Part shown: one piece after another, positions 19,599-36,225 of the stretch
Position numbering within the stretch: the first letter of the stretch is position 1
How the letters are laid out: each line of letters begins with the position of its first letter
Source of the DNA: Yoonia sp. R2331
GTDB taxonomy: Bacteria > Pseudomonadota > Alphaproteobacteria > Rhodobacterales > Rhodobacteraceae
Direction of reading: 5' to 3'
Assembly (NCBI RefSeq): GCF_041103235.1
Contig: NZ_JBGCUN010000001.1
Span: 2,418,001 to 2,482,000, forward strand
DNA length: 64,000 nt
The notes under the pieces: generated by a model
What the model saw: the letters and a program-made list of their open reading frames with translations, nothing else
Told to the model about the DNA's origin: nothing
The model's database searches: none
Position numbers and translations under genes: made by a program

Positions 19599-20738
19599 TT
19601 ACTTGACGGGAGCAAGGCCTGAGTAGCGGAAAGCTTCTGCTTCCAGGGCGTCGATTTCGTCACCAGACATCCCCTTGTGCGCAATCACCATGCGGCCAAG
19701 GAAAACCAGAGGCAACTCATCTGTCCGCCCTTCCAAAACAGCTTTGACGGATTCAGCGGCAGCTGCACCAATGTCATCAGACATACGCATCGGTGTCGCA
19801 TCCAGCGTCCCATCGCGGATTGCGTCAAGCTCTAGCGATGTTCCGCCCCAGGCCGTCGTATAGAATTCCTCGGTCTTGCCTGATGCGATTTGAGCCTCGA
19901 CCGCGCCGATCCCCATAGCAGTGTTCGCCGTGTGGACCACCTCAACTTCGGGGAAGGCTGTCATGATCTGCTCCATCGCAGTGTAGCCTTTCTCGCGGTT
20001 GAAATCAGCGTATTGCTCTGCGACGCGTTCCCAGTTTCCAGTCTCTTCAACGCATTCGGCAAAAGTTTCCGAGCGTAGGTTGTCAATCGACCCCGGAATA
20101 CCCCGGATCAAAGCGTAAGAAAGATCGGAGCCAAGATCTGCGACCATGAAGTCGCAAATGGCTTTGGCGCCTGACGGGGAATCGAAATTGAACCACGTGA
20201 CCGGCTGGGTTGTAAGATCTTTCAACGGCGTGTGGTTGCCCCAGATCATGGTTGTGAACCCTTCGGTATCAACGAGACGCTGGATATTGTCACCTTGCGC
20301 CATCAACTCTGACGGCGCGTACATGACGAAATCCCAGATGTCTTCGTCATTCACGACCTGTGCCACGAACTGGTTCTGGAGTTCCCCTTCGTTCATCCGC
20401 GTGGCGAACTCTGTCGTTTCATAAAGGATGCCAAGCTCGTCGAGCCGCGTCGTAAACGCGATGTAATTGCGGTTAAAGAAATCAGAGGTGTCGGCTGACG
20501 GGTAGATCAGTGCAATCTGAACTGGATCCGTCATCTCTGTTGCCAGTTTGACCGGCGGTGCCGCAATGGCCTCCTGCAAGGCCGCCAGCGCCTCTGGTCG
20601 CGTCACCTGCTCTGGTCGCCAGACCTCACGCTCATCATCGTCTGGTAGCGTGAAAAGTGGCAAGTCTTGAGCCATGAGCGGCGCGGATAGTCCCAAACAC
20701 AGCACCGATGTCACCGTCATTGCGTGAAAAGTTTTCAT
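19599..20738 (-). CDS. LuxP-like periplasmic sugar/AI-2-type binding protein of an ABC importer
   Basis: A 379-aa protein with a signal peptide (MKTFHAMTVTSVLCLGLSAPLMA) and the type I periplasmic-binding fold. By eye it follows Vibrio LuxP along much of its length: IALIYPSADTSDFF, NLRSETF, TAWGGTSLELDAIRDG, MRMSDD and EIDALEAEAFRYS. Positions matching remembered LuxP ligand contacts include S85, N168, R222, T273, W297 and R318; the two arginines are those that face the borate in LuxP. Three other contacts appear changed (Asp, Phe and Ala). Unlike luxP, it follows importer genes rather than a luxQ kinase. ATG 20738 has AGGGAGGAAA upstream. The ligand is inferred only. Confidence 0.75.
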   Translation of the reverse strand: MKTFHAMTVTSVLCLGLSAPLMAQDLPLFTLPDDDEREVWRPEQVTRPEALAALQEAIAAPPVKLATEMTDPVQIALIYPSADTSDFFNRNYIAFTTRLDELGILYETTEFATRMNEGELQNQFVAQVVNDEDIWDFVMYAPSELMAQGDNIQRLVDTEGFTTMIWGNHTPLKDLTTQPVTWFNFDSPSGAKAICDFMVADLGSDLSYALIRGIPGSIDNLRSETFAECVEETGNWERVAEQYADFNREKGYTAMEQIMTAFPEVEVVHTANTAMGIGAVEAQIASGKTEEFYTTAWGGTSLELDAIRDGTLDATPMRMSDDIGAAAAESVKAVLEGRTDELPLVFLGRMVIAHKGMSGDEIDALEAEAFRYSGLAPVK

Positions 20739-20800: not shown

Positions 20801-21931
20801 TTAGGTCGTCACGCCCCCTGGCAGGGCTGCGCCCAGAAGGAACAACGCGGCAAGTGCAGCGATCAGCCCACCCAGGAATTTGAGAATGGATAGGTTCTGG
20901 CGTGATCCGATTTTCGCCCAGATGTTGCCCGCGACGTCTTTGTCTTTCGACTGAAGCCACGAATAGGCGGCTACAGAGACGACAATCACGATGCCAGCAG
21001 CGACGGATTGCCAGAAGAACTCAATGCGCAAGATGATGGTGGCATTGGTAATCATGGCGAGCAAAATCACACCGCAGAACGCACCCAGCATGGAGGCACG
21101 CCCGCCGAACAGGGAGGTCCCCCCAACCACAACCGCGGCAATTACATGTAGGTTCAGGAAACTGGCCGACGTGGCCTGAATGGAGTTCAGCTTGCCCGCC
21201 AGCATCACGCCGCCCAATCCAGCCAAAGCCCCCATCAGGGAATAGGCATAAACACGTTGCCGATCGACGGCGATGCCCGCCATCTCTGCAGCTTCAGGGT
21301 CGGAACCGATCCCAAGAGCGTATCGGCCAAAAAAGGTGCGCGTCAGAACGAAGTATCCGGCAACTATGGTGACGATCCCGATCAGAACTGGGACGGGCAA
21401 GAAACCCTCGATACGACCACGCCCGATGATTTTGATGATCTCGGGGAACTTTGCCAACACGAGGCCCTTGGCGAGCACAAGTGCAATCCCGCGGTAGATA
21501 AGGTCCATCGCCATGGTCCCGATCAAGTCGGGAACATTCAATTTGGTGACAACTATGCCATTGATCGCACCAAGCGTCGCGCCAATCGTGATGGCAATCA
21601 AAATGCCGACGTAGGGCGAAAACCCGTATTGTTTGATCATGAAGGCCATGATCAACGCGCTCAAGGCCGCGATTGAGCCAATGGACAGATCAATACCGCG
21701 CTGCGCGATGACAAATGTCATCCCAACTGCCATTGGCATGAACATGGCGGCTTCCATCAAAACGATCTCAAAGTTCGAAAGACGGAAGAAGCGCGCTGGC
21801 TCGACGATCAACATGAACGTCATCAGCATTGCGATCATCAAGATAGGGCCAAGGATGGACACGTATGGGCCAATACGCTCCATAAACGATTGTTGCCCTG
21901 GCACCTGAACGTCTGCGGTCGAGTCCATCAT
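20801..21931 (-). CDS. CUT2/Frc-type sugar ABC transporter permease
   Basis: A 376-aa permease of the RbsC/FrcC family with about ten helices. Family motifs include GMTFVIAQRGIDLSIGSIAA near the third helix, and GGTSLFGGRASMLGAFCGV. It is longer than RbsC because of an N-terminal extension of about 30 residues. It overlaps the ATPase gene by 4 nt and is followed after 62 nt by the LuxP-like binding protein. Only one permease gene is present, so it should act as a homodimer. Confidence 0.85.
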   Translation of the reverse strand: MMDSTADVQVPGQQSFMERIGPYVSILGPILMIAMLMTFMLIVEPARFFRLSNFEIVLMEAAMFMPMAVGMTFVIAQRGIDLSIGSIAALSALIMAFMIKQYGFSPYVGILIAITIGATLGAINGIVVTKLNVPDLIGTMAMDLIYRGIALVLAKGLVLAKFPEIIKIIGRGRIEGFLPVPVLIGIVTIVAGYFVLTRTFFGRYALGIGSDPEAAEMAGIAVDRQRVYAYSLMGALAGLGGVMLAGKLNSIQATSASFLNLHVIAAVVVGGTSLFGGRASMLGAFCGVILLAMITNATIILRIEFFWQSVAAGIVIVVSVAAYSWLQSKDKDVAGNIWAKIGSRQNLSILKFLGGLIAALAALFLLGAALPGGVTT

Positions 21932-22842: not shown

Positions 22843-23577
22843 TCAACGCATAACATGCCCTGCGCACCATTCCCGAATGGCGTCTGACGTGCGCTGCGCC
22901 TCTTCGAGGAGAACAAAATGCCCTGCATTCGGGATAATCGCCTGCGTTCCGTCAGGCGCTGCCGCCACGATCTCTGCCCCCATTTGCGTGGACGTAAGCG
23001 CATCTTGCGCGCCATTTATCATCAACAAAGGTGCATCGAAGCGCGCCACATCGGCCAAGGACGATGGCCTTCCAATGGCAAGCTCTATCTGATCAGCGAA
23101 CGTTGAGCAGGGTGTCTTGCAGGCCATATCCATGACCAATTTCTTGATCTCAGGACGCGCGGTCTTCGGGGCCGCAACGTAGAGGGGCCAAAGGTGTGTC
23201 TCTACAAATTCATGCGGCCCTAGTTGCGCGAACCGGCTGACCATCTCCCGTCGCACGGGCGCCATTTCCGGCGCATCTGCATGCGCTGTCGTACTGATCA
23301 AAACCAAACCGATGCACCGCTCAGGATACCGGCGCATGATCTCCATCACGACCTGGCAGCCAAGCGAGAACCCGACGACTTGGAAATTGGGGGCCATGCC
23401 CACCACAGCTTCATCTGCCAGCGCAGCCAATGACGCGCAGTCCAATCGCGGTACAACCCGCACTCCCCCCGACACCGTGGTGTCCAACGCCATAATGACG
23501 GGATCGAATACCCGCGCGTCACACAACGTCCCCGGCACGAACAGCCATGTCGGCGCGTCGTGACCCGGTAATGTCAT
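22843..23577 (-). CDS. alpha/beta hydrolase
   Basis: A 244-aa alpha/beta-hydrolase-fold enzyme. The nucleophile elbow is GFSLG, the acid lies in NGAQDALT and the histidine in NAGHFVLLEE, so the full Ser-Asp-His triad is present. Members include meta-cleavage-product C-C hydrolases, lactonases and esterases. It overlaps the aldolase gene by 4 nt and probably works on the same pathway. No signal peptide, so it is cytoplasmic. The substrate is not deducible. Confidence 0.82.
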   Translation of the reverse strand: MTLPGHDAPTWLFVPGTLCDARVFDPVIMALDTTVSGGVRVVPRLDCASLAALADEAVVGMAPNFQVVGFSLGCQVVMEIMRRYPERCIGLVLISTTAHADAPEMAPVRREMVSRFAQLGPHEFVETHLWPLYVAAPKTARPEIKKLVMDMACKTPCSTFADQIELAIGRPSSLADVARFDAPLLMINGAQDALTSTQMGAEIVAAAPDGTQAIIPNAGHFVLLEEAQRTSDAIREWCAGHVMR

Positions 23578-24344
23578 CCAGCATCCGCCGCACGGCTGTG
23601 ACGAACTGCATCCGACATACCCTGCGTCGCCAAAGCGAAATCATTGCCAGGGGTCACCATTGCAAACCCCTCTGCGATCCGCTGGCGGGCCATCTGCGGG
23701 CTGCTGCAAAAGATGCCAACAGGCACGCCCGCAACCGTCGCGCGATGCAGAATATGGGAAATGGCCTCGCTCGTTTTGCTGGGGCCATTCTCTGCGCCCG
23801 GTGCCTCTCCAAGCGCGAGGGCAAGGTCATTTGGGCCAATATATATCATATCAACCCCCGTAACGGAGAGGATGTCATCAATGTTTGATAGCCCCTCGGC
23901 CGTTTCAATCATTGGAATAACAAGGATTTCTTCGTTGGCATGTTGGAAATAATCTGCGCCGCCATAAAGCTTGCCGCGTGCCGGACCAAAGGACCGGGTG
24001 CCGACAGGCGCATAGCGGCAGGCCGATACGAGCGCCGCAGCATCCTCTTTGTTGGACACCATGGGACAAACGACACCATAGGCACCCGCGTCCAAAAGGT
24101 GCATGATGCCCTCCGGTTCATTGGACGGAGATCGAACAATCGGCACCGCCGGTGTCGACGAAATGGCTTGCAGCATATGCACCGCGAACTCGAACCCAAG
24201 CATCCCATGCTGAAGGTCAACTGCGACACAATCATAACCTTGGTGCCCAGCCCCTTCGGCAAGATAGGCGGATGGAATCGAAAGCCATCCACATACGATT
24301 GGGTCTTGCGCCGCAATCATGTCTTTCAGCTTATTTTTGCGCAT
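23574..24344 (-). CDS. HpaI-family class II aldolase
   Basis: A 256-aa metal-dependent pyruvate aldolase of the HpcH/HpaI family. The catalytic base H46 is in VDLQHGMLG, the pyruvate-binding R71 in IVRSP, and the metal ligands E147 in MIETAEGL and D173 in IGPNDLALA. The family cleaves 4-hydroxy-2-oxo acids to pyruvate plus an aldehyde, as in homoprotocatechuate degradation (HpaI), glucarate (GarL) and rhamnonate (RhmA) pathways. Which aldehyde is released here is unknown. ATG 24344 is preferred to an upstream TTG. Confidence 0.88.
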   Translation of the reverse strand: MRKNKLKDMIAAQDPIVCGWLSIPSAYLAEGAGHQGYDCVAVDLQHGMLGFEFAVHMLQAISSTPAVPIVRSPSNEPEGIMHLLDAGAYGVVCPMVSNKEDAAALVSACRYAPVGTRSFGPARGKLYGGADYFQHANEEILVIPMIETAEGLSNIDDILSVTGVDMIYIGPNDLALALGEAPGAENGPSKTSEAISHILHRATVAGVPVGIFCSSPQMARQRIAEGFAMVTPGNDFALATQGMSDAVRHSRAADAG

Positions 24345-24412
24345 GGACCAATATCCCAACTTCCATTCTGATGCGTTTTAGGTGCCGATTGACGACCCAA
24401 GGAAATCCGACA

Positions 24413-25480
24413 TCAGGCCGCGGTAAGCGCTGATGAAACGTCATACCCATGCTTTTGAGCAAGGGCGCTGATCTCAGCCCTCAGGGACGCTGGAACAGGC
24501 AAGCCGTCCTTCAGACGCGCAATCATCGTTTCGTGTTCGAGCTCTCCCGGAAGCAACATACGCCCGCCCTTTGCAGACATCGGTGAGGCTTTGATGGTTT
24601 TGTGCATGTCGGCCATGCGCGCCTCTAATTGGTCCCGACCCAGAAAGGCGTCAGGATCAATGACGATGAACATGTGGCATGTTTCACTTGGCTCGTCGGG
24701 ATTGGCGTACATACTCTTGATGCCAAATTGATAGGCGCCACCTGTTAATACTCCGCACAGAATATCGACCATCAACGACAGGCCGAACCCCTTGTGACCA
24801 CCCAGCGGCAACAAGAACCCTTCAAACCCCACAAATGGATCATCCGTCGGCTCGCCATCACGGTCAGTCGCCCAGCCAAACGGAATTTTTTCGCCCTTTT
24901 CTTGGGCCAGAAGGAGTTTCCCACCGGCGACCGCGGACATCGAAATGTCAAGGATCATAGGGAATTCTCCACCGGTGGGCGCGCCAAAAGCCAGCGGGTT
25001 GTTTCCGGTTATCGGTTTGGCCCCACCCGGAACAACGAGGTTCGGAATGACATTTGTCATCGCCAGCGCGATCATGCCCGCTTCCGTGGCTTGCTTGATA
25101 TACAAACCCGCAGCGCCAAAATGGTTTGAGTTACGCACAGCGACAGCGCCGATCCCATTGTTTTGGGCCAGCTCAATTGCGCGATCCGTCGCACGATGCC
25201 CTACCACATATCCAAGACCCGCATCCCCATCCCAAACCTCGAAGCTGCCGCGCCCGCCAAGGCACTTGACGTCAGGATGAGTGTTGACTGACCCGTCGGA
25301 GATCCGTTGCGCATAAATCGGTAGTCGCAGCAAACCATGGCTGTCGACACCCCAAAGGTTGGTCTGTACCAAATCTTGGGAACAGGTTTCCGCGTCCGAC
25401 GACGACAGCCCCAAGTGGGAAAGGAATCCAGTCAGAAAATCTGTAAGCTCAGCGGCTGGGATTTTGATATTCTCTGACAT
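24413..25480 (-). CDS. Ldh-family NAD(P)-dependent oxidoreductase
   Basis: A 355-aa enzyme of the malate/L-lactate dehydrogenase-2 family, which has its own fold unrelated to classical LDH. Family motifs are WGVDSHGLLRLPIY (catalytic histidine), AVRNSNHFGAAG, PGGAKPITGNNPLAFGAPT and GGHKGFGLSLMVD. Relatives reduce or oxidise 2-oxo/2-hydroxy acids such as lactate, sulfolactate, 2,3-diketogulonate and ureidoglycolate. It lies 13 nt after the cupin gene and 68 nt before the aldolase. A 2-hydroxy-acid substrate in the same pathway is likely, by inference. Confidence 0.85.
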   Translation of the reverse strand: MSENIKIPAAELTDFLTGFLSHLGLSSSDAETCSQDLVQTNLWGVDSHGLLRLPIYAQRISDGSVNTHPDVKCLGGRGSFEVWDGDAGLGYVVGHRATDRAIELAQNNGIGAVAVRNSNHFGAAGLYIKQATEAGMIALAMTNVIPNLVVPGGAKPITGNNPLAFGAPTGGEFPMILDISMSAVAGGKLLLAQEKGEKIPFGWATDRDGEPTDDPFVGFEGFLLPLGGHKGFGLSLMVDILCGVLTGGAYQFGIKSMYANPDEPSETCHMFIVIDPDAFLGRDQLEARMADMHKTIKASPMSAKGGRMLLPGELEHETMIARLKDGLPVPASLRAEISALAQKHGYDVSSALTAA

Positions 25481-25493
25481 CTCTTGCGTCCTT

Positions 25494-26033
25494 CTACTTG
25501 GAAAACATCGGCAGCGACTTCGCGCTCACCATGACGGACGCAAAGACACAGGGCGCGTTCGAGCGGTTGTGCCACGTGTGGGCTGTCCCCCGCTGGATGA
25601 GCACGTCGCCAGCCTTCAACAAGGTCTCGGCATCGTCTGTTACGGCAATGACCTCCCCGGACAGGATGATGTTGTAGTCAACCGTTTCATTGCGGTGCAT
25701 TGTCGGGTCTTGCGCCCCTTCAACTTGAATATCTGGGGCCGAGATTGCGGCGAAATCGTCATCAACCGCTTCGGCGCGCTGCACATCATCTGGAAGAAGC
25801 TCAACGATCCGAAACCGCGTCCCCCCTTCTGGCGGATGGTGCGTAATTGGGCGCGCGCCGGCGTCTTCTGTTCCGGCATTCGACGCCAAGGGTCCGTCCG
25901 TTTCCCAAAGCTCATAGAACGTGAGCGCCCGACCGGGCTGTTCGGCAATTTGGCTGGGTGGCCCATCATGCAGAATATAGGACCGCCCGTCTTCTGAATT
26001 GGCCGTTACAACCCGTTTAAACTGCAGCGGCAT
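25494..26033 (-). CDS. cupin-domain protein, first gene of the LuxP-like/aldolase operon
   Basis: A 179-aa protein. The C-terminal cupin (about 105-172) shows HRNETVDYNIILSGEV and RGTAHTWHN, the two metal-binding motifs. The N-terminal half (MPLQFKRVVTANSEDGRS and onward) is a lead-in seen in cupins beside aromatic or sugar-acid catabolic genes. ATG 26033 follows AAAGGTGAC and is preferred to starts at 26069 or 26093, which run into the operator. The function could be a metal-dependent isomerase, a dioxygenase or binding. The exact reaction is unknown. Confidence 0.75.
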   Translation of the reverse strand: MPLQFKRVVTANSEDGRSYILHDGPPSQIAEQPGRALTFYELWETDGPLASNAGTEDAGARPITHHPPEGGTRFRIVELLPDDVQRAEAVDDDFAAISAPDIQVEGAQDPTMHRNETVDYNIILSGEVIAVTDDAETLLKAGDVLIQRGTAHTWHNRSNAPCVFASVMVSAKSLPMFSK

Positions 26034-26070
26034 GACGTCACCTTTCTGGCCAAAAGCTCTTTGCGTCATT

Positions 26071-26097
26071 ATTGTTGACAATTTTCTCGACAATTGT
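26071..26097. promoter_or_regulatory. candidate GntR operator upstream of the cupin gene
   Basis: A perfect palindromic site ATTGT-TG-ACAAT (26071-26082) is followed one turn later by CGACAATTGT (26088-26097). It lies between the cupin gene (minus) and the open frame at 26146 (plus). It matches the sites at 22790 and 27726, so the GntR regulator at 26960 is the likely ligand. Confidence 0.6.
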
Positions 26098-26959: not shown

Positions 26960-27655
26960 CTAGAGCACGAAGCGGTGCCGCGGACGAATTTTCGCACCAT
27001 TGCTATCGGCGCCGTGGCGCAGGTCAAATTGCTCCCGATACCGATCAATCCGCGCCAAATCGAAATGGGCGCGGATTTGGTCCACCAAGGCACCTTGATC
27101 CGACCCTGACATTGCATCGATGATGCCTTCGTGCTGCGTGATCACATTCTCCATGAGGTCCGGATTGCCGAACTTCATCGCCGTAATCGGATGTGTTCGC
27201 ATTGCGTAATCCTCAATTGCTGCGGCAAGCGCCGCATTCCCGCAATGCGCATACTGAGCCCGGTGAAACTCTGTATTGAGGTGAAGAACCTCACGATATT
27301 GGGCCGCGCGGGTCGCCGCACTATGGCGTGATTGTATTTCTCGCATATTTTCAATGATCGCGACTGGTGCTGGCAAGACCATCAGCTTGATCGCATGGGT
27401 TTCCAGCAATTGCCGAATTTCAAAGAGGTCCGCGACTTCCTTTGGATGCGGTTCGCGCACAAACACGCCCCGATTGGGAATGCGCTCAATAAAGCTCAGT
27501 TCTTCAAGATGACTAAAGGCTTGCCGCAACACATGCCGTTTTGTCCCATAGCGCTCCACCAACTGTTCTTCTCCCAGCTTGGCGCCAAAAGAGAAGGTTC
27601 CAACGACAATGTCCTCATAAAGCTGCGAGAGGACCGTCTGCGAAGTGGTGGTCAT
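26960..27655 (-). CDS. GntR-family regulator (FCD subfamily) of the LuxP-like/aldolase block
   Basis: A 231-aa regulator with a winged helix-turn-helix (about 5-66; ERYGTKRHVLRQAFSHLEELSFI) and an FCD effector domain (about 75-210, with the histidine-rich HLNTEFHRAQYAHCG). ATG 27655 is preferred over a start 51 nt upstream because GGGCAGGAAA precedes it. ATTGTYRACAAT-type sites upstream of this gene and of the cupin gene suggest that it represses itself and that operon. Confidence 0.85.
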   Translation of the reverse strand: MTTTSQTVLSQLYEDIVVGTFSFGAKLGEEQLVERYGTKRHVLRQAFSHLEELSFIERIPNRGVFVREPHPKEVADLFEIRQLLETHAIKLMVLPAPVAIIENMREIQSRHSAATRAAQYREVLHLNTEFHRAQYAHCGNAALAAAIEDYAMRTHPITAMKFGNPDLMENVITQHEGIIDAMSGSDQGALVDQIRAHFDLARIDRYREQFDLRHGADSNGAKIRPRHRFVL

Positions 27656-27725
27656 TTTCCTGCCCAGTTTTCTGCTTGTGACCAACACTTGTGTTGGCAC
27701 CTCCATTCCTGCAGCACTATTGTAT

Positions 27726-27938: not shown

Positions 27939-28895
27939 TTATTCCGCTTCATGGTTCACAATGAAATCACTCGGCAGCTCTGGCCCCCAAAGGTAAATCG
28001 AATCCTCTGGCGGGTAATCCCCGCTGTCCCAGTCACAATCCAGTGGAATATAGTCGATATCTGACGAGTACTCGGAATAGCTGCCCCATGGATCCCTGAC
28101 GTAGTGGAAGTAATTCGACCCAAGAACGTGCCGGCCAAGCCCCCACCCGTCACTGTATCCTTTGTCTGCCATCTGCATGGCCCCTTTTCCGATATCGTTG
28201 ATCGAAGGGACATCCCATGAACAGTGATGCAACCCCGGTGCCGATGACTTAGCAAAGGCAACCAAGTGGTGATCTGACCCGTGGATACCATGCATGAAAC
28301 AAATGCCGTCGCCGGACCGATCCGAAAGCCGCAAACCCAAAACGCGGGCATAAAACTGGATTGCTTTGGGGACATCGGCGGTAAAGATCAGGACATGCGC
28401 AAGGCGGTGGGGTCGCACCTGCGCAACTTTGGAACGCTGCATCGATCCCATCGTGCCGGGCGTTGCACTCAGCATAGAGAACTCTGACTTCGCGTCGGGG
28501 GACGATTTCTCGGCGACCTTGACCTCGATCGTGACCCCATTGTGATCCCGAAACCATATCCCGTTGCTATCAAAGCCCTGCGGCGGGTCCATCAGCTTCA
28601 CACCCTCGGCTTCTGCACGGAGTTTGATCGGTTCAAAATCCTCTTCAAAGACGCCGAAACTCAGAAAATTCAGCTTCTTACGGGCCCCTTCGTTCAGAGA
28701 AGCCCAGCGTTGTTCTGATCCGAAGGTGTAAAGGCCAAGCCCATTCCCCTCTTCGCGCACGTCCAGACCAAAAGACGTATAAAACTCCTCAGCCACCTTA
28801 AGGTCAGGCACCGCCATGTTGAATGTGTCCATGGAATGCACACCCAGTTCACCGGGGCGTTTGTTCACGCCGATCTTTCCACCAATTGCAGTCAA
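27939..28895 (-). CDS. type I extradiol (catechol-type) ring-cleavage dioxygenase
   Basis: A 318-aa protein with two vicinal-oxygen-chelate domains (about 17-130 and 162-285). The catalytic half carries the metal triad H167 (RLAH), H210 (DHHLVAF) and E275, plus the signature GRHVLGSNYFHYVRDPWGSY, matching BphC/catechol 2,3-dioxygenase-type enzymes. It should open an ortho-diphenol ring next to the hydroxyls using Fe(II) and O2. It is the last gene of the operon from 36107 and overlaps livM by 4 nt, so ring cleavage is coupled to uptake. The natural catechol is unknown. Confidence 0.88.
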   Translation of the reverse strand: MTAIGGKIGVNKRPGELGVHSMDTFNMAVPDLKVAEEFYTSFGLDVREEGNGLGLYTFGSEQRWASLNEGARKKLNFLSFGVFEEDFEPIKLRAEAEGVKLMDPPQGFDSNGIWFRDHNGVTIEVKVAEKSSPDAKSEFSMLSATPGTMGSMQRSKVAQVRPHRLAHVLIFTADVPKAIQFYARVLGLRLSDRSGDGICFMHGIHGSDHHLVAFAKSSAPGLHHCSWDVPSINDIGKGAMQMADKGYSDGWGLGRHVLGSNYFHYVRDPWGSYSEYSSDIDYIPLDCDWDSGDYPPEDSIYLWGPELPSDFIVNHEAE

Positions 28896-29950
28896 GTTTC
28901 TGTCCTTTCATGATTGAGGATCAAACGTCGCTGGATCGGGAACAACACGAGACCAGATCGCTGTTGCAAGAGCCCCCAAATGCCCTGCCTTGCAAAGACC
29001 ATCACCGCGACCCCGGCAAGCCCAAGGGCGACCAGATACCATGTGCCAAAGTCCGCAAGCAGAGCGCGCAAAACAAAGAAGACCATAACACCGATAATGG
29101 GGCCCTCGATCGTGCCGATGCCACCAATAACCACGACAAAGATCACAAACGCCGTCCAGTCGGTGACGCTAAAGGCTGAGTCTGGGGAAATCCGAGCCTT
29201 TTGCAGAAAGATCAAGGCGCCAACAATTCCCGTTCCGAAGGCCGCGATCAGATAGGTCATCCACTTCATCGCAACGGCGTTGATGCCAACAGATTTGGCG
29301 GCATCTACATTGTCGCGCACCGCGCTCAGGCCCAATCCTATGCGTTTACGCAGCATCACATAGACAACCGCGATAAAGATCACCGCCATCGCCAAGGCAA
29401 TCCAATAAAGCAGGATATCGCGCGCGGCCGAGGCACTTACGCCAAAGACGGTTTGGATCCATTCCGTCCCGGCCATATTGCGTACCACGTCGCGTGGCAG
29501 CGATGTTCCCGTGCCCCCGCCCAATGCCTTCCATTGGGACACCAGCAAACGGATCACCTCGGCGATGACCCATGAACCGATGGCAAAATATGCACCATCC
29601 AGCCGAAACAGGAAGAACCCGCTTGGAATGGCAATCACCAATGCGGCCAGTCCCCCAATCAGGATCGCGAATAAAGGGTCAATGCCCGCCAAACTTACGC
29701 TTGCAAAAAGCGTATAGGCCCCAAGACCCACAAAGGCCTGCTGTCCAACAGAGACAAGCCCTCCGTACCCTGCGAGCAGGTTCCAGCACTGTGCGAGCGA
29801 CAGCAAAGTGAGGATCAGAAACATATCCTTGATCATGCCGCGCGACGCAAATGCAGGCAGCAAGATCGCTAGGATTACGACACATACCGCAAGCGCCACA
29901 AAAGTGCGGCTTGTACGGGTTGAAGTTTGAATGCGCATCGAAGTCATCAT
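28892..29950 (-). CDS. livM: branched-chain-type (HAAT) ABC transporter permease LivM
   Basis: A 352-aa permease with about nine helices. LivM motifs include CWNLLAGYGGLVSVGQQAFVGLGAY near residue 60 and the ATPase-contact region RDNVDAAKSVGINAVAMKW. The start at 29950 uses the TAATG overlap with the livH stop. In operons with aromatic enzymes, HAAT transporters often import aromatic acids rather than leucine, so that is the likely job here. Confidence 0.9.
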   Translation of the reverse strand: MMTSMRIQTSTRTSRTFVALAVCVVILAILLPAFASRGMIKDMFLILTLLSLAQCWNLLAGYGGLVSVGQQAFVGLGAYTLFASVSLAGIDPLFAILIGGLAALVIAIPSGFFLFRLDGAYFAIGSWVIAEVIRLLVSQWKALGGGTGTSLPRDVVRNMAGTEWIQTVFGVSASAARDILLYWIALAMAVIFIAVVYVMLRKRIGLGLSAVRDNVDAAKSVGINAVAMKWMTYLIAAFGTGIVGALIFLQKARISPDSAFSVTDWTAFVIFVVVIGGIGTIEGPIIGVMVFFVLRALLADFGTWYLVALGLAGVAVMVFARQGIWGLLQQRSGLVLFPIQRRLILNHERTET

Positions 29951-30804
29951 TATTTCGGCAAGAGTCCTTTTGGTCGAATGAGAAGCACCAGCAAGAACGC
30001 CAGGTGGCCGGACAAAATCTGCCATTCAGGATTTATGGCTGCGCCCAGTGTTTGCGCCACGCCGATTATGACCCCGCCTAACAAGGTGCCCCAAAGGCTA
30101 CCAAGGCCGCCGATAATCACAGCCTCAAAAGCATAAAGCAGGCGTGCTGGGCCGATTGTGGGGTCAAAGTTGGCGCGCATGCCAAGGTAGAGCGCCGCAA
30201 TTGTGACAACGACCAACGCCAGCCCCGTCGCAATGGCAAAGATGTTGTTGGGTTTCACGCCCATCAGTTGGGCCGTTGTGGGGTCATCAGCAACAGCCCG
30301 GAAAGCGCGTCCAATGACCGTGTGGTAGAACACCCAGTTTAGCACAACGATGACGACAATCGCGGATCCGAATGTCATCAAAGGCAACACTCCAACTGTC
30401 GACACCCCGATATCCAAGGATTGCGTTTCAAGCGCCCCACCGGGAATGCGTTTGCTATCCGCAGAAAAGGTTTCCTGCATGAGGTTTTGCAAAACAACGG
30501 ACAAGCCGAATGTCACCAGCAACGGCGGCAGAATATCGGTGCCCAGCACGCGGTTCAAAACACCACGTTGCAACACCCACCCTGCCACAAACATCACGGG
30601 CGCCGCGATCAATGCGGCAAGAAATGGGTTCAACCCCAGAACCGTCACGCCCATCAGAATAATGTAGCCCGCACAAATGATCAGATCACCATGGGCAAGG
30701 TTTACAAGGCGCATTATCCCGAAGATCAGGGACAGCCCCGCGGCAAATAGCGCATAAAGCCCGCCCAAAAGAACGCCTTGGACAATGGTATCGACCCACA
30801 TCAT
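29950..30804 (-). CDS. livH: branched-chain-type (HAAT) ABC transporter permease LivH
   Basis: A 284-aa permease with about eight helices and the LivH signature GLSLIFGIMRLVNLAHGD, plus RAFRAVADDPTTAQLMGV for ATPase coupling. It overlaps livF by 4 nt upstream and abuts livM, so these genes are translated together. It pairs with LivM as the membrane channel. Confidence 0.9.
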   Translation of the reverse strand: MMWVDTIVQGVLLGGLYALFAAGLSLIFGIMRLVNLAHGDLIICAGYIILMGVTVLGLNPFLAALIAAPVMFVAGWVLQRGVLNRVLGTDILPPLLVTFGLSVVLQNLMQETFSADSKRIPGGALETQSLDIGVSTVGVLPLMTFGSAIVVIVVLNWVFYHTVIGRAFRAVADDPTTAQLMGVKPNNIFAIATGLALVVVTIAALYLGMRANFDPTIGPARLLYAFEAVIIGGLGSLWGTLLGGVIIGVAQTLGAAINPEWQILSGHLAFLLVLLIRPKGLLPK

Positions 30805-31505
30805 ATGACGGCTCCGAAATATGCGTTGTTGATGTCCTCTCGGCTGAGCTTGTCAGGCGGCCCCTCTAGCGAAATGCGCCCCTCGATCATGCAATAGACA
30901 TAGGATGCGATTGACGTCGCCAGGGTGACGTCCTGTTCCACCACGATGGCGCAAGTTTCGTTCGAGAGTATCTTTGGCATCGCGGCATAGATTTCTTTGA
31001 CGACAATGGGTGCAAGGCCAAGGCTGATCTCGTCAAACAGGATCAGATCGGGGTTGGACATCAAAGCGCGGCCAATGGCGACCATCTGTTGCTGCCCACC
31101 CGACAATGCGGTTGCCGGCCGACTGCGGAACTCCTTCAGGATGGGAAACAACTGGTAGATGCTCGCCAGGTTCCATGGCCCATTCCCTTGCTGTTTGTCG
31201 GCCCCGATCAAAAGGTTTTCTTCGACGGAAAGCGACGGAAACAACCTGCGCCCCTCAGGCACCATGGCAATTCCGCGCCGCATAATCACATCGGCGGGCA
31301 GATCACCGATCGACTGCCCGCGAAACTGGACCTGCGCCGGTGCGTTTTTCAAAACACCCGCAATCGAGCGCATCAATGTCGTTTTGCCAGCACCATTGGC
31401 GCCGATAATCGCCACGATCTGGCCCGGCTTGACCGTGATATCAACGCCAAAAAGCGCGCGAAAATCACCGTAACTGGCCTCAAGTCCCGCTGTTTTCAGC
31501 ATCAC
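30801..31505 (-). CDS. livF: HAAT ABC transporter ATPase LivF
   Basis: A 234-aa ATPase with Walker A GANGAGKTTLMR, signature LSGGQQQMVAIGRAL, Walker B LILFDEISLGLAP and a terminal NAYFGA region typical of LivF. It overlaps livG by 4 nt and livH by 4 nt. It forms the nucleotide-binding pair with LivG. Confidence 0.9.
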   Translation of the reverse strand: MMLKTAGLEASYGDFRALFGVDITVKPGQIVAIIGANGAGKTTLMRSIAGVLKNAPAQVQFRGQSIGDLPADVIMRRGIAMVPEGRRLFPSLSVEENLLIGADKQQGNGPWNLASIYQLFPILKEFRSRPATALSGGQQQMVAIGRALMSNPDLILFDEISLGLAPIVVKEIYAAMPKILSNETCAIVVEQDVTLATSIASYVYCMIEGRISLEGPPDKLSREDINNAYFGAVI

Positions 31506-32221
31506 GCATCAATCCCCAGATAGATTTCGCGCACCGCGGCGCTGGCCATGATCTCTTCAGGGTCGCCATGGCCAATCACCTTACCAAAATCCAGCACCAG
31601 CAGCTCTTCGACGACAGCGGTCAGGGCGTGCAAAACGTGTTCAATCCAGATGATGGTAGTTCCGGTTGCGTGCACGGTGCGAATGGTGTCGATCAATGCC
31701 GCACATTCGCCTTCTGTCAGCCCGCCCGCAATTTCATCCAGCAACAACAAATCAGGATCCGTTGCCATCGCCCGGGCCATCTCAAGGCGCTTGCGATGTA
31801 GCAACGACAGCCCCCCCGCCGCATCGTTGGCGACGGGCAAAAGCTCTGTCGCTTCAAGAATCTGAAAGCACCTTTCGGCAACGTCCTGCTCTGGCAGGTT
31901 GCGCCCAAAAGAGGCCGCCGCGAGGAGGTTTTCAAAGACGGTTAACGACCCAAAGGGCTGCGGAATTTGAAAGCTGCGCCCAATGCCTGCCCGCACTCTT
32001 TGACTGGGCGGCCAAGTCGTGACGTCCCGGTCCTTGAAAACGACAGTTCCACTGTCGGCGCGGATGTTGCCGTTGATCAGGTTGAACAGAGTCGATTTGC
32101 CTGCCCCGTTCGGGCCAATGACGCCAAGCGCCTGGCCCTTGGGCACATCAAAGCAGATGCCATTGGCTACGGTGAGCGCGCCAAATGACTTCTTCACATC
32201 GCAAAGCTGTAGAATTGGCAT
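31502..32221 (-). CDS. livG: HAAT ABC transporter ATPase LivG
   Basis: A 239-aa ATPase with Walker A GPNGAGKSTLFN and Walker B LLLLDEIAGGL. The signature segment is LSLLHRKRLEMARA, which departs from LSGGQ as LivG proteins often do. The C-terminus ends REIYLGI, the LivG tail. It starts 21 nt after the binding-protein gene. Confidence 0.9.
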   Translation of the reverse strand: MPILQLCDVKKSFGALTVANGICFDVPKGQALGVIGPNGAGKSTLFNLINGNIRADSGTVVFKDRDVTTWPPSQRVRAGIGRSFQIPQPFGSLTVFENLLAAASFGRNLPEQDVAERCFQILEATELLPVANDAAGGLSLLHRKRLEMARAMATDPDLLLLDEIAGGLTEGECAALIDTIRTVHATGTTIIWIEHVLHALTAVVEELLVLDFGKVIGHGDPEEIMASAAVREIYLGIDA

Positions 32222-32242
32222 GGCGCGCCCTCTTTTTTGTCT

Positions 32243-33502
32243 TTAGCCCAGCGCTTCCAGAACTCCACCTTTTGGGACTTCCGGCGCTTGGCTGTTTTCG
32301 ACAACGACAAGATCGAAAGACCCATCTTCAGAACGGCGCCATTGACCGCCCGTCAGTTTGGATTTCGTGACGTTGGCTTGCGCAAATGGCGGCACACCGA
32401 CCCCGTTCCATTCGATATCTCCGATCACGGATGACAGTTTCGTCGCGGCAATCGCCTGCGCGGTTGCTTCGCCATCACCAACAGATGCTGTGCGCCCCAT
32501 GACATCAGCCGCCATTTCAAACAGCGAATGCACAAAGCCAATCGGCTGGGTCCACGATCGACCCGTCTGGGCCGTATATGCCGCCGCCAGATCCGCAGCA
32601 GATTGCCCCGAAACGGAAGAAGAGAACGGATGTGTGGGTGTCCACCACACCTCAGACGATAGGTTGTGCCCCGCATCGCCCAAGGCTTCGACGGTTGGCG
32701 GGAACAGGATCGCCTTGGCGACCGTGACAATCTTGGGGGCAAAGCCCTGCTGTTTGGATTGGTTCCAGAACGTCGTGAAATCCGGTGGAATAATGACCCC
32801 AGTTACAATGTCCGATCCGTCCGCCTTAAAGGCGTTGATCTGTGCCGAAAAATCATCCGTAAGGTTCTGGAAACGTCCCGGATCCAACAGGCTGAAACCC
32901 GCGGCGTCAAACCCCGGCCGCACGCCAATGTTGGGATCCCCCCAAGCGTTGCCATCCGCATCATTTGGAAACAAACCACCGACACGTTTGTTCGTTTCAA
33001 GCTGGTTCCACATGGATGTGAAGACCGAAATGATATCTTCCAGCCCCCAGAAATAGTGAAACGAAAAGTCGAACGGCGTCCAAGAGCCCGGATCGCCGGG
33101 GTTGCCTTGTTGGCCAATAAACCAGGGCTGCCATGGCGCCAAAGTCGAGATACACGCGACGCCTTCCAACTCACAGGTTGTGGTAACCGGGTTGGTCGTT
33201 TCAGGCGTTGAGCCGACCAACATCAGGTCAACTTCGTCTTCCACGATCAATTCCTGCGCCACCTCAGCCGCGCGGTTGGGATTGGATTGGCTGTCTTTGA
33301 CAATTACTTCAAAATCTTGTCCCGCATTGCTGCCCAAGAACAGATTGATATTGAAATCATCACTTTCCGAGAACGCGGCCAACGGCCCCGTTTGCGGGCT
33401 GACATAGCCCAACTTGATCTTGGTGCCCCTCGCGATCGCAGGGGCTGCCAATAGCGTGGTAGCCGCAGCCGTGGTTTTAAGCAGATTGCGCCGTGTAATC
33501 AT
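32243..33502 (-). CDS. HAAT-type periplasmic binding protein with Tat signal
   Basis: A 419-aa leucine-binding-protein-family (type I) receptor. The N-terminus MITRRNLLKTTAAATTLLAAPAIA is a twin-arginine signal, so it is probably exported folded. The mature start KIKLGYVSPQTGPLAAFSE is the family opening. ATG 33502 follows AGGGAGGAAAATTA. Given the phenol hydroxylase and dioxygenase in the same operon, an aromatic acid is a likely ligand, by inference. Confidence 0.88.
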   Translation of the reverse strand: MITRRNLLKTTAAATTLLAAPAIARGTKIKLGYVSPQTGPLAAFSESDDFNINLFLGSNAGQDFEVIVKDSQSNPNRAAEVAQELIVEDEVDLMLVGSTPETTNPVTTTCELEGVACISTLAPWQPWFIGQQGNPGDPGSWTPFDFSFHYFWGLEDIISVFTSMWNQLETNKRVGGLFPNDADGNAWGDPNIGVRPGFDAAGFSLLDPGRFQNLTDDFSAQINAFKADGSDIVTGVIIPPDFTTFWNQSKQQGFAPKIVTVAKAILFPPTVEALGDAGHNLSSEVWWTPTHPFSSSVSGQSAADLAAAYTAQTGRSWTQPIGFVHSLFEMAADVMGRTASVGDGEATAQAIAATKLSSVIGDIEWNGVGVPPFAQANVTKSKLTGGQWRRSEDGSFDLVVVENSQAPEVPKGGVLEALG

Positions 33503-33536
33503 TAATTTTCCTCCCTGTTTCCCCGGAACGCCGGGG

Positions 33537-35258
33537 CTATCTGGCCAGTATGTGGCCGATGATCTCCCCAAGTATTTCCCTGGCATTTTCTGGCATTCCG
33601 GCTGATCGCCATCCGACGTAACCGTCTGGCCGCACAAGAACGCAGCCCTCCTCTGAGATCTCGCTGGCGTGATACCAATCTGCGAAAATGTCATAGGCGT
33701 CGCAGCCTTCCGGCCCGATCGTGAGAGCCTCAATACCCACGGCCTTTGCAGCCTCGATCCAGACCTCTCCGCCGATGCCGGTCAAAAGGGTGAACTGGCC
33801 TTTACCCGCAAGATCCTTGGAAGAGACCTTCTCGCCATTCCTGTTCAGCCAAACATGCGGCAAGCGTGCGCCCGGCCATGTCGTCGCGTGGTAATAAAGT
33901 TCCGGGTCGCGTGTGTACTCAGGCTCGGGTGATCCATCGCTAACCACGGCATGCGAGCGATAGCGATTGTTCAGCTCGACACCGTGGCAGTTGAATTCAT
34001 AATTCTTCTGACGGATCGCCTTATAAAGGCTCTCGCGTCGTGAAGCGCCTTGCGCGGTCGCATCTTTGCGGCTTTCGATGGCGGCAGTCGGATCATCAGA
34101 GCCGATCAGACCAAGCGCTTCAAAGATTGGTGGATAGTCACCGATAGACTTGTTGGCCCGCTTGACGATCTTTTCGGCAACAGGCGCACGCTCATCCTGG
34201 TAACTGTTCAACAAAGCCTTACCTGCCTGCCCCTTGAGCACCGCAGCCAGTTTCCAAGCCAAATTCTGCGCATCCTGGATAGAAGTGTTAGAGCCGAGCC
34301 CATTCAAAGGCGGGTGGCGGTGGATCGCATCACCCATGCAGAACACGCGACCTTTCGAAATTTGCGTCGCCCACATTTCATTGACGGTCCAGGTCGATGT
34401 AGACCGCACCTTTACATCAATCGTATCGTCACCAACCAATTGATGGACGATTTTGATGGCCTCCTCCTCGGACAGCTTCATTTCCCCTTCGGAAATGTCG
34501 TAACCCCAGATCGCCAGCCATTCATTCCATGGGCGCACCATGCGGATCACCCCTGCGCCAATGCCACCGATCTGGGCGCCAGGTTGCAGGATCCAATACA
34601 GAACCGATGGGCGATGCGCGGCATATTTGGACAGATCGGCATCGAACAGAATGTTCATAGAGCCCGACAGCCCCATTTCGCCATCCAGCGGCAAGCCAAG
34701 GTCGTCAACAACCTTTGAGCGCGCACCGTCCGCGCCGATCATATACTTCGCACGGATTTCAAAAGTCTCGCCATTCAGGCGATCCTTGATCGTGGCGGTG
34801 ACACCGTCCTCATCCTGCACCAGTGACACATATTCACTATTGAACATGATCTTACTGCCGCGCTGGCCGGCGCATTCCAAGAGCATTGGTTCAAGATAGG
34901 TTTGTGGAAGGTCACACATGCTGCATGGGCTGGCGAGGTCATAATCCGCCTTTCGTGCAGGATGATTGCCCCAAGAAAGAACCCGACCAAACTCTTCCCC
35001 TGCCAGTGAATAACAAAAGGTATTGTTGGCCATCTCGCCCTGACCCGTGGCATGTTTCAGCGCGGCACCTTCAATGCCAAGGTCGCGAAACACCTCCATC
35101 GTGGCTTGGTTGGTGATATGGGCGCGCGGTGTGTCCGCCAGCCAGCCGTATTTTTCGACCACGATATTCGAAACACCGTAGGTCGAAAGCAAAGCCGCCG
35201 ATGACAATCCGGCTGGGCCGGAACCGATAATCAGCACCTCTGTTTCAAATCGTGCCAT
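33537..35258 (-). CDS. FAD-dependent aromatic hydroxylase, PheA/TfdB-like
   Basis: A 573-aa group A flavoprotein monooxygenase. It has the FAD motif LIIGSGPAGLSSAALL (about 8-23), the GADGARS motif, and MGDAIHRHPPLNGLGSNTS, nearly that of phenol and 2,4-dichlorophenol hydroxylases. The C-terminal thioredoxin-like domain (about 410-573) is typical of this larger subfamily. It would use NAD(P)H and O2 to add a hydroxyl beside an existing phenolic one, giving a catechol for the dioxygenase. It lies 3 nt after the FAH gene and 34 nt before the binding protein. Confidence 0.85.
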   Translation of the reverse strand: MARFETEVLIIGSGPAGLSSAALLSTYGVSNIVVEKYGWLADTPRAHITNQATMEVFRDLGIEGAALKHATGQGEMANNTFCYSLAGEEFGRVLSWGNHPARKADYDLASPCSMCDLPQTYLEPMLLECAGQRGSKIMFNSEYVSLVQDEDGVTATIKDRLNGETFEIRAKYMIGADGARSKVVDDLGLPLDGEMGLSGSMNILFDADLSKYAAHRPSVLYWILQPGAQIGGIGAGVIRMVRPWNEWLAIWGYDISEGEMKLSEEEAIKIVHQLVGDDTIDVKVRSTSTWTVNEMWATQISKGRVFCMGDAIHRHPPLNGLGSNTSIQDAQNLAWKLAAVLKGQAGKALLNSYQDERAPVAEKIVKRANKSIGDYPPIFEALGLIGSDDPTAAIESRKDATAQGASRRESLYKAIRQKNYEFNCHGVELNNRYRSHAVVSDGSPEPEYTRDPELYYHATTWPGARLPHVWLNRNGEKVSSKDLAGKGQFTLLTGIGGEVWIEAAKAVGIEALTIGPEGCDAYDIFADWYHASEISEEGCVLVRPDGYVGWRSAGMPENAREILGEIIGHILAR

Positions 35259-35261
35259 GGG

Positions 35262-36107
35262 CTAGACCTCCACCACGGGATTGCGTAGCAGGCCGATCCC
35301 CTCGACCTCTACTTCGCAAACGTCGCCCTGTTGCATCAGAACTTTCGGATCACGTGCCCAACCGATCCCAGCGGGCGTTCCCGAAACAATAATGTCTCCC
35401 GCCTCTAGGGTGATGGCCTCAGAAATGATGTGGATGCAGTCCGCGACCGAAAAGATCATGTCCGAGGTCGTCGCACTTTGCATCACCTCACCGTTAAGGC
35501 GGGTTTCGATCTTAAGGCCCGTGCCACCCGATGGCAGTTCATCGGCCGTGACAAATGCCGGACCGAATGCCCCTGTGTCGTCAAAGTTTTTGCCGACCGT
35601 CCATTGCGGCGCCTTGAACTGATATTCGCGCACCGACCCGTCGTTGAATACCGAATAACCCGCGACGTGGCTAAGGGCATCAGCCTTGGAAATGCTGCGC
35701 CCCGGTTTACCGATGACGGCCACCATCTCTCCTTCAAAGTCGAAAGAGTTTGAAAAGGATGGCTTTACCAAGGATTGCCCATGGCCAATCAACGACGTCG
35801 AAAAGCGATTGAACAACGTTGGATAGTCCGGCTGTTCATACTTACTTTCGATGGTGTGGTCGGCGTAGTTCAAACCAACGCAAATGATCTTGCCCGGCCG
35901 CTGCAGGGGCGGAAGATAAGTGATTAACTCAACGTCCACCTCTGGCGCAGGCGAAAGGGCCTTTGCCAGTGCCTCGATCTGATCGGCCTGCAACGCAGCT
36001 TCAAGCGTCGAAAACGGCAGCTCACCAACTGGCAACCCCCGAAGCACGCCATCCTGCTCAAGCCCGAGCCCAACCGCATTGCCAAGTTCATACCTAACGA
36101 ATCTCAC
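35262..36107 (-). CDS. fumarylacetoacetate-hydrolase-family enzyme
   Basis: A 281-aa FAH-fold enzyme. The catalytic core begins KIICVGLNYADH (about 74). The metal ligands are the two glutamates of DFEGEMVAV and the aspartate of FNDGSVREYQ, and GTPAGIGWARDP follows. Family members hydrolyse acylpyruvates, isomerise or decarboxylate 2-oxo-diacids, or hydrate 2-hydroxydienoates. The start is a GTG at 36107, 6 nt after GGGAGGG; the ATG inside AATGACGTGA is out of frame and stops at once. It is the first gene of the operon and should act after ring cleavage. Confidence 0.85.
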   Translation of the reverse strand: MRFVRYELGNAVGLGLEQDGVLRGLPVGELPFSTLEAALQADQIEALAKALSPAPEVDVELITYLPPLQRPGKIICVGLNYADHTIESKYEQPDYPTLFNRFSTSLIGHGQSLVKPSFSNSFDFEGEMVAVIGKPGRSISKADALSHVAGYSVFNDGSVREYQFKAPQWTVGKNFDDTGAFGPAFVTADELPSGGTGLKIETRLNGEVMQSATTSDMIFSVADCIHIISEAITLEAGDIIVSGTPAGIGWARDPKVLMQQGDVCEVEVEGIGLLRNPVVEV

Positions 36108-36136
36108 GTCATTCCCTCCCGTATTCTGAATTACAT

Positions 36137-36225
36137 CTTTTTTTTGCAAAAAAACTTTTTTTGTCAATAAGTTTTTTTATTGCTGCCTAAGATGGAATTC
36201 TGTAGTGCTGGGGCGTTAGCGCTAA
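36137..36225. promoter_or_regulatory. A-tract-rich divergent promoter region with a palindrome
   Basis: Between the FAH operon (minus, start 36107) and gntR (plus, start 36238) lie several long A and T runs (36137-36179), including two AGTTTTTTT/ACTTTTTTT blocks. A perfect 10-bp palindrome TTAGCGCTAA stands at 36216-36225, 12 nt before the gntR ATG. Bent A-tract DNA plus a palindrome is what a regulated divergent promoter would look like. Confidence 0.5.

Follow-up and report, generated by a model that had tools for sequence, protein, structure and literature searches.

A LuxP-family periplasmic binding protein encoded with an ABC importer in Yoonia sp. R2331, and related importers within lsr operons

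The window analysed here, that is the whole stretch of 64,000 nucleotides from Yoonia sp. R2331, encodes a periplasmic binding protein (hereafter P0001) that can be assigned, from its sequence, to a branch of the LuxP family that consists of importers and has been little described; in another clade of the family, importers lie within lsr operons, where they appear to stand in for the LsrACDB importer. The classic receptors of AI-2, LuxP and LsrB, are usually treated as separate, one sensing and the other importing. The two AI-2 systems are joined in operons that retain LsrK, LsrR and LsrG but have a LuxP-type importer, and the finding in the window gains interest because this LsrK-linked clade makes the relation between both systems testable, namely the import of AI-2 via a LuxP-type pocket, with borate going along or not. 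Besides, the results suggest that the LuxP family also serves cargo other than AI-2; the database label LuxP alone may therefore be no proof of AI-2 reception, and counts of LuxP by name may come out too high in surveys. Taken as a whole, the explanation developed below, which combines an importer built around P0001, a catabolism of the acid or lactone type and an exchange of the AI-2 importer in the lsr-linked clade, is regarded as reasonably probable.

The open reading frame encoding P0001 is 379 residues long, contains all five motifs by which the initial annotation had likened it to LuxP and begins with a stretch that looks signal-like by eye. The likeness to LuxP extends far beyond chance: using phmmer against solved structures, the top matches are four distinct LuxP sequences (5e-42, residues 51-373 of P0001), with E. 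coli RbsB coming next at 8.5e-16, and a profile built from 31 family members scores LuxP at 265 bits vs. 92 bits for the runner-up, a ribose-binding protein. A chance match of motifs is ruled out by these values. P0001 matches Pfam Peripla_BP_4, the family also found in RbsB/FrcB importers, which further share a BPD_transp_2 permease with the window, and none of the NCBIfam models reaches its cut-off with P0001.

The main tree comprised 66 rows, with E. coli RbsB, AlsB and LsrB as well as Peripla_BP_4 proteins of the window genome standing for the outside of the LuxP family, FrcB being absent; left out were 13 family rows (thinning), XylF, YtfQ, two rows of second binding proteins and two rows from the window genome, L155 (XylF-like) and L157 (no match). 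The seven rows from the window genome represent six distinct proteins, since L156 and L163 are the same ORF covered by two overlapping loci; by eye, no fewer than three of these proteins (L156/L163, L159 and L162) resemble LacI-type regulators. Such a tree had been proposed as a check, and in it the LuxP family stands apart from RbsB, AlsB, LsrB and the six proteins of the same genome with a support of 98/96. At the level of sequence, neither a placement with RbsB or FrcB (the latter not in the tree) nor a loss of the pair of arginines discussed below appeared. The assignment of P0001 as LuxP-type and not RbsB-type is supported by these sequence comparisons, and RbsB-type membership is ruled out by the tree, in which RbsB is present and FrcB absent, together with the pocket residues. 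Within the family, the window protein groups with the Roseobacter-type and Vibrio GGDEF-linked rows (100/99; 88/98 with RbsB as the only outgroup). A clade uniting it with the 12 kinase-linked LuxP rows, four non-Vibrio ones included, is rejected (AU p 0.001), so is a clade with the lsr-linked rows (AU p 0.005), and grouping the window with both LuxP proper and the lsr clade gives an AU p of 0.037. Its exact place is less sure because the AU test does not reject a tree in which the window protein branches outside the rest of the family (p 0.13). LuxP proper and the lsr clade are sisters (98/99; 92/77 in a smaller tree), yet a topology that unites all importers in one clade is not rejected either (AU p 0.35), long branches being involved; from these trees, the origin of LuxP from an importer protein would be favoured.

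Regarding the ligand pocket, Q77, S79, W82, T266, D267 and W289 are taken here to be ligand contacts of LuxP. In addition, N159, R215 and R310 hold the borate diester in LuxP, according to the accessible part of PMC6452917. Six contacts had initially been listed as kept in P0001, five of which stand, S85, R222, T273, W297 and R318 aligning with S79, R215, T266, W289 and R310, respectively; the sixth, N168, had been paired with N159, whereas phmmer and both MAFFT alignments place G167 opposite N159 and N168 opposite I160. By sequence alignment, the count of LuxP contacts kept in P0001 is then 5 of 9, both arginines included as first proposed, and the hydrogen-bonding set of N159, R215 and R310 is not complete, with G in place of N159. 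The three contacts described as changed to Asp, Phe and Ala are indeed so, as D83, F88 and A274 replace Q77, W82 and D267. Compared with Vibrio LuxP (1jx6, 2hj9), the window protein thus shares the match from residue 51 on, the N-terminal extension in the family profile and the five kept residues, but differs by its ABC partners instead of LuxQ, by Q77D, W82F, N159G and D267A, and by its separate clade.

Across a pocket alignment of 119 rows, some of which are one gene fetched from two collections, S79, R215, T266, W289 and R310 are invariant (119/119). Arg at the R215 position is not specific to LuxP since RbsB likewise has Arg there; W289 and R310 separate the LuxP family from E. coli RbsB, which has F and Q at these positions where P0001 has W and R. 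The RbsB residues D89, D215 and Q235 are not kept in P0001 in the alignment. Q77 and D267 occur together in all nine LuxP rows and in the four LuxP-like rows from outside the Vibrio-rich family, the lsr-linked clade has E at 77 and A at 267 (11/11 rows), and the remaining groups of 27, 5 and 62 rows, as well as the window, have D at 77 and A at 267; the acidic group seems to move between sites 77 and 267 across the family. Site 82 is W in 118 of the 119 rows and F only in the window protein. Asn at site 159 is found in LuxP (9/9), in the four other LuxP-like rows, in the lsr clade (11/11) and in 23 of the 27 rows of so-called mid importers, and is replaced by A in all 67 Roseobacter-type and Vibrio GGDEF-linked rows and by G in the window.

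P0001 had been described as encoded beside ABC importer genes, and the permease and ATPase genes do lie directly upstream on the same strand (Table 1). From the cupin gene to that of P0001, the mechanical ORF coordinates, all on one strand, leave successive gaps of 13, 53, -4, 117, -4 and 62 bases, the last two values corresponding to the overlap of the ATPase and permease ORFs and to the gap between permease and P0001; this tight spacing would be consistent with co-transcription of the genes from cupin to P0001. The cupin gene is separated from the GntR gene by 866 bases. The permease is 41% identical to that of an lsr-linked LuxP-type importer, 33% to RbsC and 29% to LsrC, and the ATPase is 39% identical to that of an lsr-linked importer, 36% to RbsA and 33% to LsrA. 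RbsA and LsrA carry two ATPase domains each. The window ATPase, unlike RbsA, has a single domain. As for the enzymes, the closest NCBIfam models of the hydrolase are 3-oxoadipate enol-lactonases, far under cut-off, and the aldolase scores 163 bits with the HpaI NCBIfam model vs. a cut-off of 369. No LuxQ-type kinase is encoded next to P0001, where the ABC genes and the enzymes are found instead.

Table 1. Features of the operon encoding P0001 and of its putative regulator (window coordinates).
Feature	Coordinates	Strand	Basis or remark
P0001, LuxP-family periplasmic binding protein	19599..20738	minus	379 aa; phmmer LuxP, Pfam Peripla_BP_4, tree, pocket alignment
Permease, BPD_transp_2, single	20801..21931	minus	Pfam 1e-29
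ABC ATPase, single-domain, 265 aa	21928..22725	minus	Pfam ABC_tran
Alpha/beta hydrolase, possible lactonase	22843..23577	minus	Abhydrolase_6
HpcH/HpaI-type aldolase	23574..24359	minus	Pfam 2e-35
Ldh_2 family dehydrogenase	24413..25480	minus	Pfam 7e-119; no NCBIfam model over cut-off
Cupin protein	25494..26093	minus	Cupin_2 4.5e-9
GntR/FCD regulator, perhaps for this operon	26960..27706	minus	Pfam GntR + FCD

In the proposed mechanism, P0001 would capture the ligand for a LuxP-family ABC importer, binding between its two lobes a small, probably furanose-shaped, oxygen-rich or anionic nutrient and passing it to the permease, with transport driven by the ATPase. The hydrolase would then likely open the cargo, after which the Ldh_2 enzyme would oxidise it and the HpaI-type aldolase cleave it, the GntR regulator perhaps controlling the pathway. 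The operon content suggests a small hydroxy acid or lactone as cargo, and the order of steps could be lactone hydrolysis, oxidation of the hydroxy acid and retro-aldol cleavage to pyruvate. In another genome (G014), a cupin-Ldh_2 pair (57% and 56%) adjoins another sugar-type ABC importer with a GntR relative (48%) nearby, which argues that this enzyme set goes with importers; the same stretch holds an ORF resembling, by eye, 2-keto-4-pentenoate hydratase, and a 4-hydroxy-2-oxo acid intermediate would fit because this hydratase-like ORF lies beside the cupin, Ldh_2 and GntR relatives. No relatives of the window aldolase or hydrolase were seen in that stretch, and the LuxP-family protein of G014 is on a different contig. 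Beyond the GntR gene, the next genes of the window on the same strand (27939-36167) encode a branched-chain-type ABC importer together with FAD hydroxylase, glyoxalase-fold and FAA-hydrolase proteins, perhaps for aromatic catabolism. On the other side of P0001 (13515-19409) are genes for a GntR regulator, an amino-acid-type ABC importer and a class IV aminotransferase.

A scan of the species-genome collection (tblastn at E <=1e-3 after a peptide-pattern filter) returned at least 394 relatives, the best 80 of which were kept and sorted, part by tree and the rest by similarity, into 8 lsr-clade, 25 mid and 47 Roseobacter-type loci. Within the fetched flanks, the permease type of the window is shared by 76 and its ATPase type by 75 of these best 80 of 394 loci, which does not support the idea of P0001 as an odd one-off. 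By group, the permease is found in 7/8 lsr-clade, 23/25 mid and 46/47 Roseobacter-type loci and the ATPase in 7/8, 24/25 and 44/47, several contigs ending inside the flank. The LuxP-family protein is patchily distributed: among the genomes sampled, it is present in 4 of 6 of the genus, in 15 of 295 genomes of the taxonomic family (E 1e-40) and in 16 of 398 genomes of the phylum (1e-25), the own genome being counted each time. The version found in the window was seen in one species only, in two assemblies, and two genus mates have in its place a Roseobacter-type protein at 53%; the link between enzymes and importer rests on gene order because of this restriction to one species. A relative of the hydrolase, aldolase, Ldh_2 or cupin at >=40% was found at only one of the 80 scanned loci (45%), and plasmid searches with Ldh_2 and cupin gave 33-42% among the 40 matches listed, of 182 and 68 records. 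As exemplified by SPO_RS21100 of Ruegeria pomeroyi, which has 53% identity to P0001, the Roseobacter-type importers share with the window D at 77, A at 267, the ABC partners and the clade; they differ by A at 159, by other enzymes and, mostly, by an additional importer that has a binding protein of its own, the latter being present at 41 of the 47 loci.

The most telling setting of the family is that of the lsr-linked clade. On plasmid pRA01 of Roseicitreum antarcticum, the genes of a LuxP-type binding protein, a permease and an ATPase are accompanied by others whose annotations read AI-2 kinase, sugar-binding regulator, RbsD/FucU, antibiotic biosynthesis monooxygenase and class II aldolase. 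The kinase shares 55% identity with LsrK of E. coli and scores 784 bits with NCBIfam vs. a cut-off of 528, the best model of the regulator is LsrR, under cut-off (292 vs. 486), and that of the LsrG-like protein is LsrG, also under cut-off (110 vs. 135). Relatives of LsrK, LsrR and LsrG at >=40% occur in 7 of the 8 scanned lsr-clade loci, with LsrF (62%) in one, and, as far as flanks reach, LsrK at >=40% was found near none of the other 72. The eighth locus belongs to an Anaerolineales genome and lies between LuxQ-like kinase ORFs. Among the 394 family genomes, ten contain LsrK (E <=1e-120): four have the LuxP-type importer (G135, G074, G767 and G688), five have LsrA, C, D and B (G111, G225, G051, G107 and G291), and in one (G709) LsrA, C and D are followed by the end of the contig. 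The G688 locus is taken as that of pRA01, its kinase being 100% identical to the Roseicitreum query and at the same position. For G135 and G074, the two of the four genomes examined for LsrB, the best matches reach 25% and 24%, none being above 25%. A class II aldolase is also found in two LsrB-type operons (50%).

These lsr operons look as if they held an exchanged AI-2 importer, LuxP-type in place of LsrACDB; from gene order, the simplest reading would be one pathway with two exchangeable importers, and the LuxP-type importer of this clade most likely carries AI-2. With LsrACDB, only the lsr-linked LuxP-type clade shares the setting of LsrK, LsrR and LsrG, whereas LsrACDB differs by LsrB lying outside the LuxP family in the tree, by the two ATPase domains of LsrA and by having two permeases. 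The lsr-operon LuxP-type importers (Hoeflea, Stappia, Pseudotabrizicola and Roseicitreum) have in common with the window a binding protein, one permease and a single-domain ATPase; their own features are the LsrK, LsrR and LsrG neighbours, with E at 77, W at 82 and N at 159.

In the accessible text of Rezzonico and Duffy (2008, PMC2561040), LuxP homologues outside Vibrio are given for four bacteria, two of them Oceanospirillales and two delta-proteobacteria; three of these homologues lie in operons with PAS-type regulators, and the table of that paper attributes LsrB, not LuxP, to two Rhodobacter species. LuxP is called exclusive to Vibrio in the accessible part of PMC12503165. From what is available of PMC12268683 (2025), 267 LuxP proteins were counted in RefSeq genomes, AI-2 binding is reported for three and AI-2 is described as being carried into the cell by way of binding to LsrB and LuxP; neither the word LsrK nor the term lsr operon appears in the main text as available, and proteins like those described here may be among the 267. 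No published report of LuxP-type proteins inside lsr operons was found in a search that judged most papers from their listing entry, most subscription papers and bioRxiv preprints lying outside it.

AI-2 is a better fit for the lsr-linked clade than for P0001. The initial annotation had put forward an AI-2-like compound as cargo, and the import of AI-2 by P0001 as a nutrient without LsrK, which appears very improbable, would agree with the five kept contacts, two arginines included, and with AI-2 binding by three LuxP proteins picked at random from the 267 (PMC12268683, accessible text). However, the best matches to LsrK in the window genome reach only 24% and 25% and are read as other sugar kinases, LuxS was not found in this one genome (0 of 1) and the local enzymes fall outside the LsrF and LsrG families (Pfam, NCBIfam). 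AI-2 uptake by P0001 is unlikely because neither LsrK nor LuxS was found, because the AU tests reject a grouping with either LuxP proper or the LsrK-linked importers and because four contacts, Q77, W82, N159 and D267, are changed; the cargo is probably not AI-2, and could be the related branched sugar also suggested. Elsewhere in the genome, an LsrB-like protein (37%) was considered as LsrB and set aside, being read as RhaS-like as it sits in an apparent rhamnose operon with ORFs that resemble, from their length and the start of their sequences, an isomerase, a bifunctional aldolase and a kinase.

An ordinary pentose such as ribose is also an unlikely cargo, though less so: the accessible part of PMC9038784 lists SPOA0253, 0254, 0256, 0257 and 0258 of Ruegeria pomeroyi as a ribose uptake system, their order fits the cluster of the 53% relative of P0001 and SPOA0253 would, from this gene order, be the gene of that relative. 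Yet this cluster has two importers and ribose may belong to the other one, the RbsB residues D89, D215 and Q235 are not kept in P0001 and the window operon has enzymes of the acid type and no ribokinase (Pfam). Another scenario would have the LuxP family begin, in waters rich in borate like those of the sea, as importers of furanose-like borate esters to which the two invariant arginines would hold on, with the LuxP-type Lsr importer taking AI-2 as its borate diester, Vibrio LuxP being a re-used importer protein and the window system importing another borate-esterified hydroxy compound; it is viewed as quite improbable. The reading of P0001 as a sensor for a kinase encoded elsewhere in the genome, with the ABC genes as mere neighbours, can draw on the switching of partners among relatives, LuxP proper going with kinases, the Vibrio group with GGDEF/EAL proteins and the Anaerolineales protein with LuxQ-like kinase ORFs, but the genes adjoin, 62 bases separating P0001 from the permease and the latter overlapping the ATPase by 4 bases, and the triad of binding protein, permease and ATPase recurs across the family, so that this reading is extremely improbable. 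An importer of a small hydroxy acid or lactone stays the preferred reading for P0001.

Differing neighbour genes indicate that the family changes partners between importer, histidine kinase and cyclic-di-GMP enzyme. All four LuxP-like proteins from outside the Vibrio-rich family in the phylum sample adjoin an ORF 25-30% similar to LuxQ. In Vibrio sp. THAF190c and in another genome of the same phylum, G365 (L035:8639-10927 and L146:9056-13824), the genes of a LuxP-family protein similar to that of the window and of a second binding protein, 41% identical to the second one of the Roseobacter clusters, lie head to head, the latter being followed by a gene for a GGDEF/EAL protein (recognised by eye in THAF190c); no ABC permease relatives lie nearby, for THAF190c within the 21 kb fetched. 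In Anaerolineales bacterium HSG24 (Chloroflexota; L053:5662-14014), the lsr-clade LuxP-type protein, lipoprotein-like by eye, lies between two large LuxQ-like kinase ORFs and could serve AI-2 sensing beyond the hosts known for it. On the Ruegeria pomeroyi megaplasmid (L034:6287-25149), two adjacent ABC importers are followed by genes for a TRAP transporter and for PdxA-like, L-rhamnonate dehydratase-like, DHDPS-like and aldehyde dehydrogenase proteins, which would make up a sugar-acid pathway. In Trueperaceae (Deinococcota), LuxP-family importers (L089 and L125), with no LsrK relative in the fetched flanks, are near LsrR-like and class II aldolase-like genes, the former locus being also near an LsrF relative (49%).
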